From a virus, in the IMG/VR virus record IMGVR_UViG_3300042897_000184, positions 1 through 23,881 of that record: a stretch of DNA of 23,881 bases; one strand, 5' to 3'. Shown piece by piece: positions 3,494-19,303 of this stretch. Within the stretch, counting starts at the first letter, position 1. Each line of letters starts with the position of its first letter. The position numbers were made by a program, and so were the translations under genes. A model generated the notes under the pieces. It searched no databases. It was not told the origin of the DNA and saw only the letters and a program-made list of their open reading frames with translations.

Positions 3494-4282
3494 ATGGCGA
3501 AACAGACCTTTACAGCAAGTCAGGTTCTTACTGCAGCGCAGATGAATACACTGCAAACAAACGACTACAACCAAACTGTCTCAACTAAGACTGCTTCGTA
3601 CACGCTGGTCGCTGCTGATGCTGGCACTAAAGTTGTGATGAACTCTGCAAGCGCAACTGCGATCACAGTGAACACTTCGCTGTTCACGGCAGGTGACACT
3701 CTGACGATCCTAAACATTGGTGCAGGTGTTTGCACGATCACGGCTGGTACAGCAACGGTTGCTTCGGCTGGCAGTTTGGGATTGGCTACTAATGCTGGCG
3801 GTACTTTATATTTTACTAGCGCAGGTGTCAGCATCTTTCAGACTGACACCGTGTCAATGGGTTTGGTCAAGGAGACGGGCGCAACTGCCTCTACAGCATT
3901 TACAGCTGGCACACCGCTTACAGTTTTAAGTCTTTCTGCAACAATTTACGCAGGCAGAAGTTACCAAATTTTCGGTAAATTAGATGTCCAATATTCAACA
4001 TCTGCTGCAACTGGCGCCGCCTTGTTTGTGACTGCTAATTCAGTTAACCGTACTTTGTATTATCAAACAGAAGCCGTTCCAGCATTTTTTTGTCTTGGCG
4101 TCAGTGGGTTCGTATTAATGAGTGCAACAGAATTGGGCGTGACAAGTGGAAGTGCTTCCAAAACTTTTGAATTAAAATTTAAGAGTAGTGCTGCAGGATC
4201 ATTAAACACTGACCCTGACGGGTTTATTTCTGGTGGATCATTTTCGCAACAACTTTTGGTGATAGATGTAGGCGCAGCATGA
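3494..4282 (+). CDS. Putative tail fibre / virion surface protein
   Basis: A 262-residue protein rich in Ala, Thr, Ser and Gly with repeated short beta-type segments. It opens with AKQTFTASQVLTAAQMNTLQ, an N-terminal pattern I associate with tail-fibre-like proteins of phages. Residues about 35-115 (YTLVAADAGTKVVMN to TLYFTSAG) look like a repeated fibre or carbohydrate-binding fold. The C-terminal half (from about 135) is a beta-sandwich-like stretch found in other phage fibres. A strong ribosome site AGGAG at 3484-3488 precedes the ATG. No signal peptide is seen. The structural role is inferred from position and composition; host receptor binding is possible but unproven. Confidence 0.65.
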   Translation: MAKQTFTASQVLTAAQMNTLQTNDYNQTVSTKTASYTLVAADAGTKVVMNSASATAITVNTSLFTAGDTLTILNIGAGVCTITAGTATVASAGSLGLATNAGGTLYFTSAGVSIFQTDTVSMGLVKETGATASTAFTAGTPLTVLSLSATIYAGRSYQIFGKLDVQYSTSAATGAALFVTANSVNRTLYYQTEAVPAFFCLGVSGFVLMSATELGVTSGSASKTFELKFKSSAAGSLNTDPDGFISGGSFSQQLLVIDVGAA

Positions 4283-4475: not shown

Positions 4476-5996
4476 GTGCGTAATACTCGTTGGCTGGTTT
4501 TTGCGCCTGTAGCAATCTTGGCGTTATTCGCCCCACAAGCCAACGCTGAACCAGTAGCAGGATTACAAACCACTTACTACACGATTGACTCTGTACCACC
4601 AACACAGTCAGACAACATCTATACCGTTTGCGGTAGTGAAGTGGAAAACAACATCAACCGTTCATATGACGGTGAACCATATTTGGATTGCACGAACGAT
4701 TTGTTTATGGTGCATATGTCTGGCTTCATTACTATTCCAGAGCATCAGACGATTGAGTTTTGGTTGGCTTCCGATGATGGTGGCACAATAGATATTGGTG
4801 GTAATGAGTGGGGCAACTGGTCTGATCAGGGTTGTTCTTGGATGGAGTCTGGACAGATAGACATTAGTGCAGGCAGCCAGCCTTTAGATTTGTGGATGTA
4901 CGAAAACGGTGGAAGCACCTGTTTGATGTTGGCTTGGAATATCAACGATCAGGGATGGTCAATAGTTCCTGATGAAGCCTTCACAACCAATGGTATCCAA
5001 ACGGATACAAATACCACAGTACCGATTACGACCACAACCGAAAGTCCAGTAACGACTATTCAGGAGACAACAACATCATGGGAAACGACAACAACATCCA
5101 CGAGTACGACCACGACCACTTCTACTATTGCACCCTCCACGACTGTTCTTGTAACACCAAACTTGACTACTACGACACTTCAAACAACCACTACTTTAAG
5201 TCCGACCACAACACAAGAAGCAACAACAACAACAACAACGACAGAAGCCCCGAAAACAAAAAGCACCCTGTTACCAGAATCCAATGAAACATCATCTACC
5301 TCCTCAACTAGTTCTACTACAACTACGAGCGAGGCTTTGCCCGTAGAAACGACTTTGCCCACCACCCAATCAACAGAAGTTGAAGCATCGCCTTCAACGG
5401 AGTCTCCAACAACCACAGTCCAAAAAGCACCAGCAACGACATCCCCTGATACTACCGTCACGCCAGACACCCTCCCAGAGCCTTCTACGAGCCTACCTAA
5501 CGCCACAGAAACCTCAACAACGGTAAACCTACCCTCCACAACTTTTCCAGAGGATGCGCCCCTGTTGCCTACTTTGTCTGACACAGAGTTTGTGGCTGTC
5601 TTACAAGATTTACAGGATGCGTTACCTGATCAGATAACAGCGATTGTGACCACATTATTGAACACGGAAGTTACGAGCGAACAGGCTGTTGAAGTGGTTT
5701 CCAGTTCCGAAGTGTTGGAATCTATTTCTGGTGAACAGGCACAAGAATTGTTTGATGCTGTAGATCAAAGTGCTTTGACAGTTGAGCAGCAGATAGACAT
5801 TGTTGCAGCCGTGCAAGATGCACCGACAGCAGTGAAAGAAGCGTTTGAGAACGAGATAAATATCTTTGGTGGCGAAGGCTTTGATGACTATGTGCCAGTT
5901 GGCTCAAATGTGAATGTCGCTGTTAGACGCACAATTATTGTTGGTACTACAATCCTTGTGGCAATGCCATCACCAGTAGTCAGGCGCAACAGTTAA
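4476..5996 (+). CDS. Exported PA14/GLEYA-like domain protein with Thr-rich stalk
   Basis: A 506-residue protein starting at GTG. Residues 1-24 form a clear Sec signal peptide (basic MRNTRW, hydrophobic core, A-N-A then EP). Residues about 28-165 resemble a PA14/GLEYA sugar-binding domain: GLQTTYYT, a DDGGTIDIGG segment and paired Cys. Residues about 170-370 are an extreme Thr/Ser/Pro-rich mucin-like stalk. The C-terminal part is an acidic helical domain (repeats around SGEQAQELFDAV and LTVEQQIDIVAAVQDAP), then FGGEGFDDYVPVGS, a short hydrophobic stretch TIIVGTTILVAM and a basic tail. I infer a surface-displayed glycoprotein-like protein made by the infected cell, or a virion appendage. It sits between the fibre and lysis genes. 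No good ribosome site precedes the start. Confidence 0.7.
   Translation: MRNTRWLVFAPVAILALFAPQANAEPVAGLQTTYYTIDSVPPTQSDNIYTVCGSEVENNINRSYDGEPYLDCTNDLFMVHMSGFITIPEHQTIEFWLASDDGGTIDIGGNEWGNWSDQGCSWMESGQIDISAGSQPLDLWMYENGGSTCLMLAWNINDQGWSIVPDEAFTTNGIQTDTNTTVPITTTTESPVTTIQETTTSWETTTTSTSTTTTTSTIAPSTTVLVTPNLTTTTLQTTTTLSPTTTQEATTTTTTTEAPKTKSTLLPESNETSSTSSTSSTTTTSEALPVETTLPTTQSTEVEASPSTESPTTTVQKAPATTSPDTTVTPDTLPEPSTSLPNATETSTTVNLPSTTFPEDAPLLPTLSDTEFVAVLQDLQDALPDQITAIVTTLLNTEVTSEQAVEVVSSSEVLESISGEQAQELFDAVDQSALTVEQQIDIVAAVQDAPTAVKEAFENEINIFGGEGFDDYVPVGSNVNVAVRRTIIVGTTILVAMPSPVVRRNS
5216..5243 (+). repeat. ACA triplet tract in Thr-rich stalk
   Basis: A run of ACA (Thr) codons inside the Thr-rich stalk of the PA14 protein, part of a wider ACN-rich low-complexity stretch from about 5020 to 5450. 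Such a tract can change in copy number by slippage, in steps that keep the frame. Confidence 0.6.
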
Positions 5997-6157
5997 TGAA
6001 AAATTATCTTGTAGAAAATGTTTGGGTTTGGGCTGGCACAGGTTTAGTGCTGCTCACCCTTTCAGGAACTACATTGCGTCAAGCATTATGGATTACCTGT
6101 TTAACGGTAGTGGTACATTCGTTAGCAACATATCTCAAGAAAGGCGATGATCAATGA
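5996..6157 (+). CDS. Small two-helix membrane protein, holin candidate
   Basis: A 53-residue ORF (MKNYLVENVWVWAGTGLVLL onward, ending LKKGDDQ). It contains two hydrophobic stretches, about residues 9-24 and 29-46, and a short charged C-terminal tail. It overlaps the previous stop (TAATG) and the next start (ATGA), so it sits in a translationally coupled lysis block directly before a holin-like gene and the endolysin. The size and two-segment topology suit a class II holin or a holin partner. Membrane location is well supported; the role is inferred from context. Confidence 0.65.
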   Translation: MKNYLVENVWVWAGTGLVLLTLSGTTLRQALWITCLTVVVHSLATYLKKGDDQ

Positions 6158-6417
6158 AAAAGGTTCAAGATATTGCAGGCAGAATTGTTGCCTTGTTTCT
6201 CACTAACGCACTCGGAGTTATTACTGGCGCAGCCGTAATCGCACCTGATCTAGAGGTTTGGAAGTCGGCGTGTATCGCTGGCGCTGTTTCCGTGTTCAAA
6301 GTGGTTGAGTCACTTGCGAAAGCATCTATTGATGGCACACTTTCCAAAGATGAAATTGATGCAGCGTTCGGTGCTACACCTAAAAAGATCGCTAGCAAAA
6401 GGGCTGCTGCTAAATGA
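6154..6417 (+). CDS. Holin-like membrane protein
   Basis: An 87-residue protein with hydrophobic segments at about 9-31 (IVALFLTNALGVITGAAVIA) and 38-52 (ACIAGAVSVFKVVESLA), then an amphipathic segment with the pattern IDGTLSKDEIDAAF and a strongly basic C-terminus KKIASKRAAAK. This layout is typical of small actinophage holins, which form the membrane lesion that releases the endolysin. It overlaps both neighbours by four bases (ATGA) and lies immediately before the endolysin. The call rests on topology and position. Confidence 0.7.
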   Translation: MKKVQDIAGRIVALFLTNALGVITGAAVIAPDLEVWKSACIAGAVSVFKVVESLAKASIDGTLSKDEIDAAFGATPKKIASKRAAAK

Positions 6418-6929
6418 GTTTGTTGCCAATACATAAAATTGTTTTGCCATCAAACTTGGTTGGTGTTCCAGCAGGGAAGTTGCCTTCAACAATGTTGCTC
6501 AAAGTTGCTGGTGGAGGTTTCCTACATCCGAAAGCAGCGAAAGCATGGAACGCACTTGTCGCTAAAGCAGCAGCAGACGGTATTGAGTTGAAACCAACTA
6601 GCGCAGGAGATTTGTATCGTTCATACGATGTGCAGAAGCGTGGCTTTTTAACTCGCTATCAACTTGCACCTATTGAGGGTGCAAAGACACGCAAGTTTGA
6701 AGGCAAAGTTTGGTATCTGAAAAAAGGTTACGCACCGTTAGCAGCACCAGGAACTTCAAACCATAATCTTGGTATTGCGATTGATGTGGCTAATGCGAGT
6801 GGAAAAGTTTTGGAATGGATGAAAGAAAACATTGAGGCTTACGGTTTCAGTTGGGAACTACAAGAGGAAGCGTGGCATATCCGTCTAGTTTGTGGCGATA
6901 ATCTGCCTGCTGTGGTTACTGGGGCATAA
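6414..6929 (+). CDS. Endolysin, M15-family D-Ala-D-Ala carboxypeptidase/endopeptidase
   Basis: A 171-residue peptidoglycan peptidase. The zinc-binding pattern of the M15 (VanY/M15C) family is visible: SNHNLGIAIDVA gives His117 and Asp124, and EEAWHIR gives the catalytic Glu (151 or 152) and third ligand His155. An upstream LYRSYDVQ segment matches the Arg-containing substrate region. There is no signal peptide or separate cell-wall-binding domain, so export would depend on a holin, and two candidates lie just upstream and overlap by four bases. It is expected to cut peptide cross-links in the host wall at the end of infection. Confidence 0.9.
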   Translation: MSLLPIHKIVLPSNLVGVPAGKLPSTMLLKVAGGGFLHPKAAKAWNALVAKAAADGIELKPTSAGDLYRSYDVQKRGFLTRYQLAPIEGAKTRKFEGKVWYLKKGYAPLAAPGTSNHNLGIAIDVANASGKVLEWMKENIEAYGFSWELQEEAWHIRLVCGDNLPAVVTGA

Positions 6930-9132: not shown

Positions 9133-9486
9133 ATGAAAGTCAGCATTTTAATAACAAACCATTATCTGGGATGCACGGAAGCAACCCACGAGGATCACAA
9201 CAACTGCGATGTCCTCACACAAGAGTGTTGCATCGGTGACCCATCTCCACACCTGCGATTGGCAGCGATAGCAAGAGGTGAGAAGCGCAAGCACGGAATC
9301 AAGATTTCGGATTTGACTCTTGAGGAAGTAAAAGCGTTGGCAGAGGAATGCAACGAGCAAATCTACTTCACCAGTTCAACCCATCTAGACGATGGCTTCA
9401 GCAGCACCCGACACATCCACTACGCACTCAAGCGTCTGCACAACAGACTGACCAACCTGCAGAAAGCGATGGGGGAAACAAAATGA
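9133..9486 (+). CDS. Hypothetical early protein, 117 aa
   Basis: The start is set by the ribosome site at 9121-9128. The N-terminal part is rich in His, Asp and Cys (CTEATHEDHNNCDVLTQECC), which could bind metal. The rest has KISDLTLEEVKALAEECNEQ and a C-terminal amphipathic helix (YALKRLHNRLTNLQKAM). I do not recognise a family. The gene overlaps the next start by four bases (ATGA), so it is co-translated with the SprT-like protein. Confidence 0.7.
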   Translation: MKVSILITNHYLGCTEATHEDHNNCDVLTQECCIGDPSPHLRLAAIARGEKRKHGIKISDLTLEEVKALAEECNEQIYFTSSTHLDDGFSSTRHIHYALKRLHNRLTNLQKAMGETK

Positions 9487-10196
9487 CAAAGCAAGTGAGA
9501 TGGAAGTGTGCGATCTGCAATGACGGTTTGCTCGCACCGAGCAAGCCACGCAAGAACGATGTGCGCAGGTACTGCCTGCCTTGTTCATCTGAGTCTGGAA
9601 AACTTGTTGAGCGAGTTGCACCAACTTTAGAAAAGCAACGCACTGCAAAGAAAGCAGCAGTCAAGAAAAAGACTGTGGCGAAGCGTGCAACGGTTGCGAA
9701 ACGAACTGCACCTGCGAAAGCGCAGCAGCGTATTGATGCGCAGCGTGCAAAAATGATTCATGCCGAAGCAGAAAAGATTTGGAAGTTGATGCAGCCGTAT
9801 CACAAAGGCAAACCACTTCCACAGATCAAGATTGCTCGTGGAAAGAACTGGGGCAGCCAATATGGATACGCCCAATCAGGATGGAATCATATTCAAGTCA
9901 ATGTTGACCGTGAACAATCGGTGGGGCGCAGCAAACGAGTGTGGGAAGTCCTAGCCCACGAACTATGCCACTGCGCAGTGCCACCGATCTATCGGAACGG
10001 CGCACGGGATGTTCACTCAAGAGAGTTCTATGGTTGCCTCAAAGATGTATGGCAGAGGAGATGGAAGTGCGAAATCTCATTTGCAAAAGTTTCCACTTGG
10101 GGATACTCGGTGGATCACATCATTGCACGGCAGGCAGAGCATCTGATTGATTGGGTTCTGCCAACGATAGAGGTAGCGAAGAGGGATAGGGCATGA
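9483..10196 (+). CDS. SprT-like zinc metalloprotease with zinc ribbon and basic linker
   Basis: A 237-residue, three-part protein. CAIC (9-12) and CLPC (31-34) form an N-terminal zinc ribbon. Residues about 51-82 are a Lys/Ala-rich, histone-H1-like linker (repeats such as KKAAVKKK, AKRATVAKR). The C-terminal domain contains HELCH at 159-163 with a third probable ligand, His178 (HSREFYG), as in the SprT/Spartan family. Such proteases act on DNA-bound proteins in eukaryotes; in phages the role is not established. The basic linker supports nucleic-acid association. The start ATG overlaps the previous stop. Confidence 0.8.
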   Translation: MTKQVRWKCAICNDGLLAPSKPRKNDVRRYCLPCSSESGKLVERVAPTLEKQRTAKKAAVKKKTVAKRATVAKRTAPAKAQQRIDAQRAKMIHAEAEKIWKLMQPYHKGKPLPQIKIARGKNWGSQYGYAQSGWNHIQVNVDREQSVGRSKRVWEVLAHELCHCAVPPIYRNGARDVHSREFYGCLKDVWQRRWKCEISFAKVSTWGYSVDHIIARQAEHLIDWVLPTIEVAKRDRA

Positions 10197-14686: not shown

Positions 14687-15142
14687 ATGAACGGAGTAAT
14701 TATGAAAAAGATTTTTGTTTGTATTGTGGCATTAAGTTTAGGGTTTGCGAATGTTTCTGCTGTTGATGCGAAGCGTTTACCAAAAGTGAACTGTATGAAT
14801 GTGTGGAAACTTACAACTGAAGCAGGTTGGAGTAATGCTGATGTTCGTATGGCTGATCGGATTGCGTTTCGTGAGTCACGCTGCAATAAGTTGGCGCACA
14901 ACAAACTTGATCCTGTAACTATTAAAGGTGTTAAAGGTTCGCTTGGTTTGTTTCAGATCAATTTGTTTTGGCTGTCAAAAACGAGTTCGTATCCTAAAGG
15001 TTTTTTGCAAACTGTTATGAAGCGTGATCTTGTTCCGACAGATTTGTTTGTTCCCGAAATCAATGTCGCTGCTGCAGAGGCGATTATCAAATACAATCGG
15101 GCTAACGGGGGATGTGGCTGGCAGGCTTGGAATGGCTGCTAG
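14687..15142 (+). CDS. Sec-exported lysozyme/transglycosylase-like protein
   Basis: A 151-residue protein. Start 14687 has AGAAGGA 6 nt upstream; ATG 14702 (MKKIFVC) is a second good candidate with ACGGAG. A signal peptide (MKKIFVCIVALSLGFANVSAVDA) is clear. The mature part has the lysozyme-like fold signature: IAFRESRCNKLA with catalytic Glu63, GSLGLFQINLFW (GLFQIN 87-92), and AAAEAIIKYNRANGGCGWQAW near the end, with Cys pairs that may form disulfides. It should reach the outside of the membrane without a holin, unlike the M15 endolysin. It stands far from the lysis cassette. Confidence 0.8.
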   Translation: MNGVIMKKIFVCIVALSLGFANVSAVDAKRLPKVNCMNVWKLTTEAGWSNADVRMADRIAFRESRCNKLAHNKLDPVTIKGVKGSLGLFQINLFWLSKTSSYPKGFLQTVMKRDLVPTDLFVPEINVAAAEAIIKYNRANGGCGWQAWNGC

Positions 15143-17922: not shown

Positions 17923-18080
17923 AGATTATCTGCAACAAATGTCAAGCAATCCTGACATGGAATCCAGAACAAACAAACGGCTGCCTTTGCGATAGTGACG
18001 CACCAACATGGATTTGTATTACCCGAACAAAACAATTCGTTCATATGAGCCACGCCGACTACACAATTGAGGAACAATGA
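17919..18080 (+). CDS. Small zinc-binding protein, 53 aa
   Basis: Begins MKIICNKCQAILTW and has CLCDSD at 22-27, a rubredoxin-like or zinc-ribbon pairing (Cys5, 8, 22, 24). The remainder is APTWICITRTKQFVHMSHAD. Start and stop overlap both neighbours by four bases. It directly precedes the methyltransferase and is translated with it; whether the two interact is unknown. Confidence 0.55.
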   Translation: MKIICNKCQAILTWNPEQTNGCLCDSDAPTWICITRTKQFVHMSHADYTIEEQ

Positions 18081-19303
18081 TCCGAAAAGAAATAGAACAC
18101 CTAGCAATCAACATTGATGAACTACACACGCACCCATCCAATGTGCGACAGGGAGATGTAGGTGCAATCAGCGAATCATTGGAAGCGCACGGACAATACC
18201 GATCAATCGTGTATCAGCAATCCACCAAACGAATCCTCGCAGGCAACCACACCTACAAAGCAGCAAAGGCTTTAGGTTGGACACACATCGCAGCAACACC
18301 TGTCATCTGTGACGATGAACAAGCCTTGCGCATATTGCTCGCAGACAACAAAGCCAACGACTTAGCCACTTACGATGAACCAGAACTCATAGAACTATTG
18401 AAACAACTCGCCGAGACAAGCGATGGACTATTAGGCACACTCTTTGACGGAGATGAACTAGACAGCCTCATAGAAGACAACAGCCACTTTGAGTTACCAA
18501 CCGATGCAGATGATGTTCCAGACAAAGCACCAGCAATAACCAACGCAGGTGATGTATGGCTACTAGGCAAGCACAGAGTTATGTGTGGTGACTCAACGAT
18601 CAGCGACCAAGTCAAAGCACTCATGAATGGTTTAGAAGCAGACCTTGTATGGACAGACCCACCATACGGTGTCGCTTACATAGGCAAAACCAAAGACGCA
18701 CTCACCATTGAGAACGATGATATGGATATAGATGCGCTGCAAGAGTTCCTAACCAAAGCGTTCACTGCAGGACACGATGTAACAAAGAAAGGTGGCTGCT
18801 GGTATGTAGCAGCACCATCAGGCAACATATTTCAAGCGTTCAGCATCCCACTAACCAATCTCGGCATCTGGAGACACACACTCGTATGGGTCAAGGACAG
18901 TTTGGTAATGGGTCGTGCCGACTACCACTACAAACATGAATCAATCTTTTACGGCTGGAAGGAAGGCGCAGCCCACCAAGCCCCACCAGATCGTAAGCAA
19001 GACACCGTCTGGGAGATACCACGACCCAAGCGCAGCACAGAACATCCAACGATGAAACCAGTGGAACTGATCGCCAAAGCAATCAAGAACTCCACCAACC
19101 AAAACCAAATCGTCTTAGACCTATTCGGTGGATCAGGCAGCACACTCATCGCAGCACAAGAAACCAATCGCATCGCATACCTGATGGAACTAGACCCACG
19201 CTATGTAGATGTGATCTGCGCCCGATACCAAAAGCACACAGGAAACCAACCCGTACTAGAAGCGACAGCCGAACCACACAACTTTATGACTGATGCCGAT
19301 TAA
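18077..19303 (+). CDS. ParB-domain / DNA methyltransferase fusion
   Basis: A 408-residue protein. Residues 1-100 are a ParB/sulfiredoxin-like domain (HPSNVRQGDVGAISESLEAHG, ILAGNHTYKAAKALGW, LLADNKANDLA). Residues 160-385 are a methyltransferase of the N4-cytosine/N6-adenine type: GDVWLLGKHRVMCGDST, catalytic TDPPYG (193-198), EHPTMKPVELIAK, and the AdoMet-binding DLFGGSGSTLIAA (348-360). The order DPPY before FGGSG indicates the beta group. It probably modifies phage DNA. No partner restriction enzyme is recognised, though an HNH gene overlaps its end by 11 bases. Confidence 0.92.
   Translation: MIRKEIEHLAINIDELHTHPSNVRQGDVGAISESLEAHGQYRSIVYQQSTKRILAGNHTYKAAKALGWTHIAATPVICDDEQALRILLADNKANDLATYDEPELIELLKQLAETSDGLLGTLFDGDELDSLIEDNSHFELPTDADDVPDKAPAITNAGDVWLLGKHRVMCGDSTISDQVKALMNGLEADLVWTDPPYGVAYIGKTKDALTIENDDMDIDALQEFLTKAFTAGHDVTKKGGCWYVAAPSGNIFQAFSIPLTNLGIWRHTLVWVKDSLVMGRADYHYKHESIFYGWKEGAAHQAPPDRKQDTVWEIPRPKRSTEHPTMKPVELIAKAIKNSTNQNQIVLDLFGGSGSTLIAAQETNRIAYLMELDPRYVDVICARYQKHTGNQPVLEATAEPHNFMTDAD

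Follow-up and report, generated by a model that had tools for sequence, protein, structure and literature searches.

The window analysed here, a stretch of 23,881 nucleotides of viral DNA from IMG/VR record IMGVR_UViG_3300042897_000184, carries a strict two-gene cassette, consisting of a large gene for a 506-residue protein with a lectin-like head and a small gene for a membrane hairpin. Comparison with 107 distinct relatives of the large protein, nearly all of which come from IMG/VR fragments, reveals a common mount of stalk, C-terminal helical module and hairpin, on which swappable and mostly lectin-like heads are carried. We give about even chances to the proposal that this is a surface-display cassette, masking or remodelling the glycans of the infected cell against both superinfection and the re-adsorption of progeny. 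The hairpin pairing, the fusion of the two genes in some phages and the exchange of heads are new here, whereas the two proteins themselves were already in databases, either without a name or with one assigned automatically (relatives of the large one are listed as 'PA14 domain containing protein' in uncultured Caudovirales phages). The open-licence literature searched, papers on freshwater actinophages among it, yielded no account of the pairing, of the fusion or of the swapping of heads.

Architecture of the large protein

The large gene occupies positions 4476-5996 of the plus strand, on which all the features described below also lie, and begins with GTG. Its product comprises, in order, a signal peptide, a PA14 head, a stalk rich in Thr, Ser and Pro, an acidic helical module, a hydrophobic helix and an Arg-rich tail. 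Hydropathy, relatives, AlphaFold and VIA all bear out this arrangement, which had been proposed by a sequence-only reading of the window. In an AlphaFold model built with 44 sequences in the alignment, pLDDT is mostly 91-97 in the head and 94-98 in the helical module, and the stalk is disordered. When the gene is compared with its four closest relatives (L015, L016, L005 and L007), the PA14 part has a dN/dS of 0.08-0.11 and the C-terminal module one of 0.14-0.19, while the stalk has values of 0.42-0.68. This is a real gene under purifying selection, and the profile of constrained ends and a relaxed stalk is counted in favour of surface display.

The predicted Sec-type signal peptide (residues 1-24; 4476..4547) reads MRNTRWLVFAPVAILALFAPQANA, has a peak 15-mer KD hydropathy of 2.2 and ends in an AxA-like cleavage site before EPV. 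Of 86 distinct complete relatives, 85 have a comparable hydrophobic leader, as judged by simple hydropathy. No Cys is found near the end of the signal peptide; an Ltp/Llp-type lipoprotein was rejected, as there is no lipobox Cys and the site reads ANA followed by EPV. Past the hydrophobic leader, cysteine counts are even (0, 2, 4 or 6) in 85 of the 86 distinct complete proteins, as would be the case if exported domains were held together by disulfide bonds. A cruder tally that used fixed boundaries, and so took in codons ahead of the real start in some ORFs, gave five odd values.

The head (residues 25-176; 4548..5003), which contains four Cys, was delimited by Pfam, the profile of relatives and structure matches. 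It is followed by a stalk of approximately 190 residues (5004..5573), recognised from its composition, predicted disorder and relaxed dN/dS. This extended region is mucin-like, Thr, Ser and Pro accounting for 63% of the 197 residues from 176 to 372, which are disordered in the model. The Thr codons used within it are mixed (31/17/15/15), hence it is not a simple DNA repeat. The acidic C-terminal module (about residues 367-478; 5574..5909) consists of seven helices, according to the AlphaFold model and viral relatives. Behind an Arg-Arg pair, hydropathy, the model and conservation then define a short hydrophobic helix with an RRNS tail (5931..5993). In the model this helix spans residues 481-496, being about 16-17 residues in length, with a pLDDT of about 85 that drops to 60. 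The Arg-Arg pair is invariant among relatives and may be either a processing mark or a contact with the hairpin. It closes a conserved segment, YVPxGSxIxVGxRR, found in place of the LPXTG motif that is missing from the 506 residues, and a sortase substrate was accordingly rejected. With an N-terminal signal peptide and a C-terminal hydrophobic segment with basic tail both present, as judged from hydropathy and the model rather than a trained signal-peptide predictor, the protein is predicted to be of the Sec-exported, membrane-anchored type.

The head as a predicted lectin

In the window protein itself, the Pfam PA14 domain scores E = 2.6e-4, which is under the Pfam cut-off, and E = 9.7e-7 in a one-genome search. 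This weak score is made good by relatives and by structure. The relative L019 matches PF07691 at E = 8.7e-12, and the window domain aligns to that of L019 at E = 9e-16. When compared with the PDB, a head profile built from nine sequences matches the PA14 domain of RsgI3 (E = 3.8e-22) and the lectins MhPA14 and MpPA14 (E of about 1e-4 and 1e-3, respectively). The head model superposes on MpPA14 with Z = 17.0 and an rmsd of 2.1 Å over 146 residues (VIA), and on the yeast Flo1/Epa1 adhesins with Z of 12-13, a Foldseek search also having been run. Taken together, these alignments and model comparisons confirm the PA14 domain.

In PA14 lectins, an Asp-Asp pair holds the sugar-binding calcium (PMC8092209, PMC6650083); in MpPA14 this pair is Asp110-Asp111 (PMC8092209). 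Aligned to it, at the position of the DcisD calcium/sugar motif, are Asp100-Asp101 of the window protein (4773..4778), and DDG is present in all 47 PA14 heads among the relatives. A Glu-Asn-Gly-Gly loop (residues 143-146; 4902..4913) likewise lines up with DQGG in MpPA14, where these residues form a loop of the sugar site (PMC8092209). The combination of PA14 fold, Asp-Asp pair and ENGG loop implies that calcium-dependent lectin activity is to be expected of the head, the glycan-binding nature of which is well supported by these sequence and model comparisons. The fold, the consecutive Asp residues of the DcisD motif and a [DE][QN]GG-type calcium/sugar loop are thus common to the phage head and to MpPA14 and MhPA14 of RTX adhesins (PMC8092209, PMC6650083), but identity is 18%, and the latter are parts of giant Gram-negative adhesins whereas the phage domain is found in a protein of 506 residues.

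Exchange of heads on a common mount

Clustering the heads of the 86 distinct complete proteins places 47 in the PA14 class and 18 in a class of unknown family; the remaining classes have nine, four, four and two members, with a single LCCL head in addition, and one protein (L078) is without a clear head or leader. The head of L068 is confidently identified as an L-type lectin (E = 1.6e-40). The interchange of heads is seen in the comparison of L135 with L159, in which the downstream DNA is 94% identical over 899 bases and the heads are unrelated.

The mount is also found in extended forms. Extra helical repeats precede the C-terminal module in L057, L058 and L078, making a longer helical rod, and L057 and L058 match GatB/YqeY-type helical domains. 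Homology to GatB/YqeY was rejected for L057 (E = 2.9e-8), the match lying mostly in the extra helical repeats near the module.

The hairpin partner

The partner gene (5996-6157) encodes a 53-residue hairpin of two transmembrane segments, its start overlapping the stop codon of the large gene (TAATG). The hairpin matches phrog_29041 (E = 3.7e-20), a family of unknown function that hereby gains a partner and a context. This obligate partner had been missed by the sequence-only reading, as had the exchange of heads. Of the 107 distinct module proteins, 104 either had at least 200 bases of downstream sequence or were fused to a hairpin, and the hairpin is present in all 104. It forms a separate gene in 98 cases, mostly starting at or overlapping the stop codon of the large gene, and is fused to the C-terminus in six (L013, L062, L068, L074, L076 and L082). 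When 62 distinct hairpin genes were tested in reverse, 61 proved to be preceded by a module protein; in the 62nd case (L123) an HNH endonuclease-like ORF (3513-4001) has been inserted between the pair, which is the sole break in adjacency seen. One module protein apiece was detected in the 32 records searched whole, which are mostly fragments, five weak second matches being repeats inside the same ORF.

Fusion in some phages, together with strict adjacency elsewhere, implies that the two proteins work together, and we infer that they form a complex. The model of the fused C-terminus of L062 is poor, with a mean pLDDT of 46. In L056 (5441-5447), the surface protein stops at NSIFKY, the motif behind which the fused proteins continue into the hairpin, whose gene here begins two bases past the stop codon; this locus is a possible intermediate of fusion or fission.

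Genomic neighbourhood and host

In the small phages, the cassette is found between tail genes and holin-like/VanY genes. The neighbouring genes show the window to have the same order, as the sequence-only reading had described it: outside the cassette lie a holin-like small membrane protein (6154..6417; identified by sequence, phrog_26427 and synteny) and a VanY-type endolysin (6414..6929; PF02557 at E = 2.8e-13, and synteny). PHROG names phrog_26427 'nuclease'; the sequence looks holin-like, and the gene adjoins that of the endolysin. In four records of 60-98 kb (L057, L058, L070 and L089), by contrast, the flanks read contain no holin or VanY homologue; the closest one in L077 is 4 kb upstream. 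The cassette therefore seems to be independent of recognisable lysis genes, being away from them in several larger phages.

The window encodes a WhiB protein (E = 1.8e-16), which is an actinophage marker (PMC10202952), and its terminase (TerL) is nearest to that of Pontimonas phage phiPsal1 (38.7%). Hence an aquatic actinobacterium is the probable host. The tail genes of the window yielded no second PA14 domain and so give no indication that the head and the fibre of this phage share a target, which counts against the masking role proposed below.

Proposed function and alternatives

Under the surface-display proposal, the large protein would leave the cell via the host Sec pathway, with removal of its signal peptide, and its C-terminus would be kept in the membrane jointly by the two-transmembrane hairpin and the short hydrophobic helix. 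The Thr/Ser-rich stalk would then project the exchangeable head past the cell wall. Most probably, the lectin heads would occupy or remodel surface glycans, their putative ligands, late in infection, such that other phages would be kept from superinfecting the cell and released progeny would be spared renewed adsorption to debris and to cells already doomed. That other phages may be blocked had already been suggested by the sequence-only reading; the position beside lysis genes fits the protection of progeny better than early exclusion.

Phage surface proteins that block superinfection have been described, namely Llp of T5 (PMC9586334) and Ltp of the S. thermophilus phage TP-J34 (PMC3952083). 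The likeness is that a phage gene puts a protein into the host envelope, with blocked adsorption or debris binding as the outcome proposed here; mechanism and family differ, however, as Llp and Ltp are lipoproteins with neither a lectin head nor this anchor. The comparison also provides an argument against the masking view, in that exclusion proteins of the T5 Llp type are made early, whereas the cassette is positioned with late lysis genes in small phages. A further such argument is that a simple stop-transfer anchor would not usually have so short a hydrophobic helix with an Arg-Arg pair ahead of it. Conceptually, the closest precedent is Cryophage, whose exported proteins, cargo of the type IX secretion system (T9SS), are variable, include one with a PA14 domain and have been suggested to act in competition or superinfection exclusion (PMC7468147). 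Common to both is a phage-encoded exported PA14 protein that varies between related phages, but Cryophage uses this Bacteroidetes system with its own C-terminal signal, while the present proteins are from actinophages, would use Sec and have a private membrane partner. T9SS cargo was considered and rejected for the window protein.

More broadly, the invariant anchor of module and hairpin, with its plug-in glycan-binding heads, might represent a dedicated and widespread system by which freshwater actinophages repaint the host surface, a view that we hold tentatively and with slightly less than even confidence. If it is correct, infected cells become coated with lectin, excluding rivals and protecting progeny. 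Phages of actinobacteria, the dominant bacteria of many lakes, have hardly been characterised; a cassette found on hundreds of phage fragments is a concrete and testable candidate for altering the surface of the infected cell.

Display of the lectin could instead serve adhesion, with the infected cell stuck to neighbours or particles and its progeny thereby set free beside new hosts. This seems unlikely, although it retains some plausibility. The overall plan is that of the yeast adhesins Flo1, Flo5 and Epa1, with a secretory signal, an N-terminal lectin of the PA14/GLEYA type, a modular and variable centre and an anchored C-terminus (PMC8621652), MpPA14 itself belongs to an adhesin (PMC8092209), and variable heads would suit variable partners. 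Against this, an adhesin would be expected to have more than a single stalk of about 190 residues, and expression beside lysis genes gives little time to aggregate. The yeast proteins, moreover, have a GPI/cell-wall anchor, whereas the phage protein has a helical module, a short hydrophobic helix and a two-transmembrane partner, and there is no sign of common descent beyond the PA14 domain.

It is distinctly improbable that the pair is a lysis or envelope component belonging to the lysis cassette, for instance a sensor timing the holin or a stabiliser of the envelope until lysis. Speaking for such a role, the pair immediately precedes the holin-like and VanY genes in most small phages, with overlapping genes, and the partner is a small protein with two transmembrane segments. 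This is countered by the larger phages mentioned above, in which those genes are distant or missing from the flanks read, and by the six phages in which stalk protein and hairpin form a single polypeptide; nor does a lysis role have any need of swapped lectin heads.

Still less probable is a virion component, either a tail-associated or a head-decorating lectin, in which the apparent signal peptide is a hydrophobic segment for assembly. The gene comes right after tail genes, and PA14 and lectin domains are found in many phage proteins, but nearly all relatives have a leader with a basic n-region and an AxA-like site, and the even cysteine counts and the C-terminal hydrophobic helix with its membrane hairpin partner also argue against residence in the particle.

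Origin and distribution of the C-terminal module

The exported, surface-anchored architecture and the glycan-binding head that were envisaged by the sequence-only reading are both supported, as predictions, by this analysis; its further claim, that the C-terminal module had recently been acquired from an aquatic actinobacterial host, is not. In neither of two scans covering 84,980 genomes of bacteria and archaea was a relative of the module detected, the pattern sensitivity being about 62% (the two patterns of the second scan match 66 of 107 viral members), and plasmids gave no match, whereas at least 277 IMG/VR stretches contain it. Given this sensitivity, the null scans argue against a host family while falling short of exclusion. 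A moron recently captured from an actinobacterial surface protein, for which the surface-protein architecture and a resemblance to secreted proteins of some aquatic actinobacteria, noted by the sequence-only reading, speak, is therefore very improbable, the more so as the viral copies number in the hundreds, are diverged and occur once per record.

Searches with the module against Pfam, NCBIfam, PHROG and PDB sequences returned no informative match, merely scattered weak helical ones. Among named phages its sole relative is in Actinomycetia phage DSL-LC01, and a search of the same phages with the hairpin alone found none. The hairpin is present on at least 564 IMG/VR stretches.

Other genes of the window

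Three further genes of the window have recognisable domains. The ORF at 9450-10193 has a SprT-like metalloprotease domain (E = 4.8e-6). In that at 14687-15142, which lies away from the lysis genes, a lysozyme-like SLT_3 domain (E = 3.1e-8) comes after an apparent signal peptide, and the product is probably a second exported protein. The ORF at 18077-19303 contains an N6/N4 DNA methylase domain (E = 5.6e-27), its N-terminal part appears ParB-like by eye, and an HNH-like ORF comes after it.
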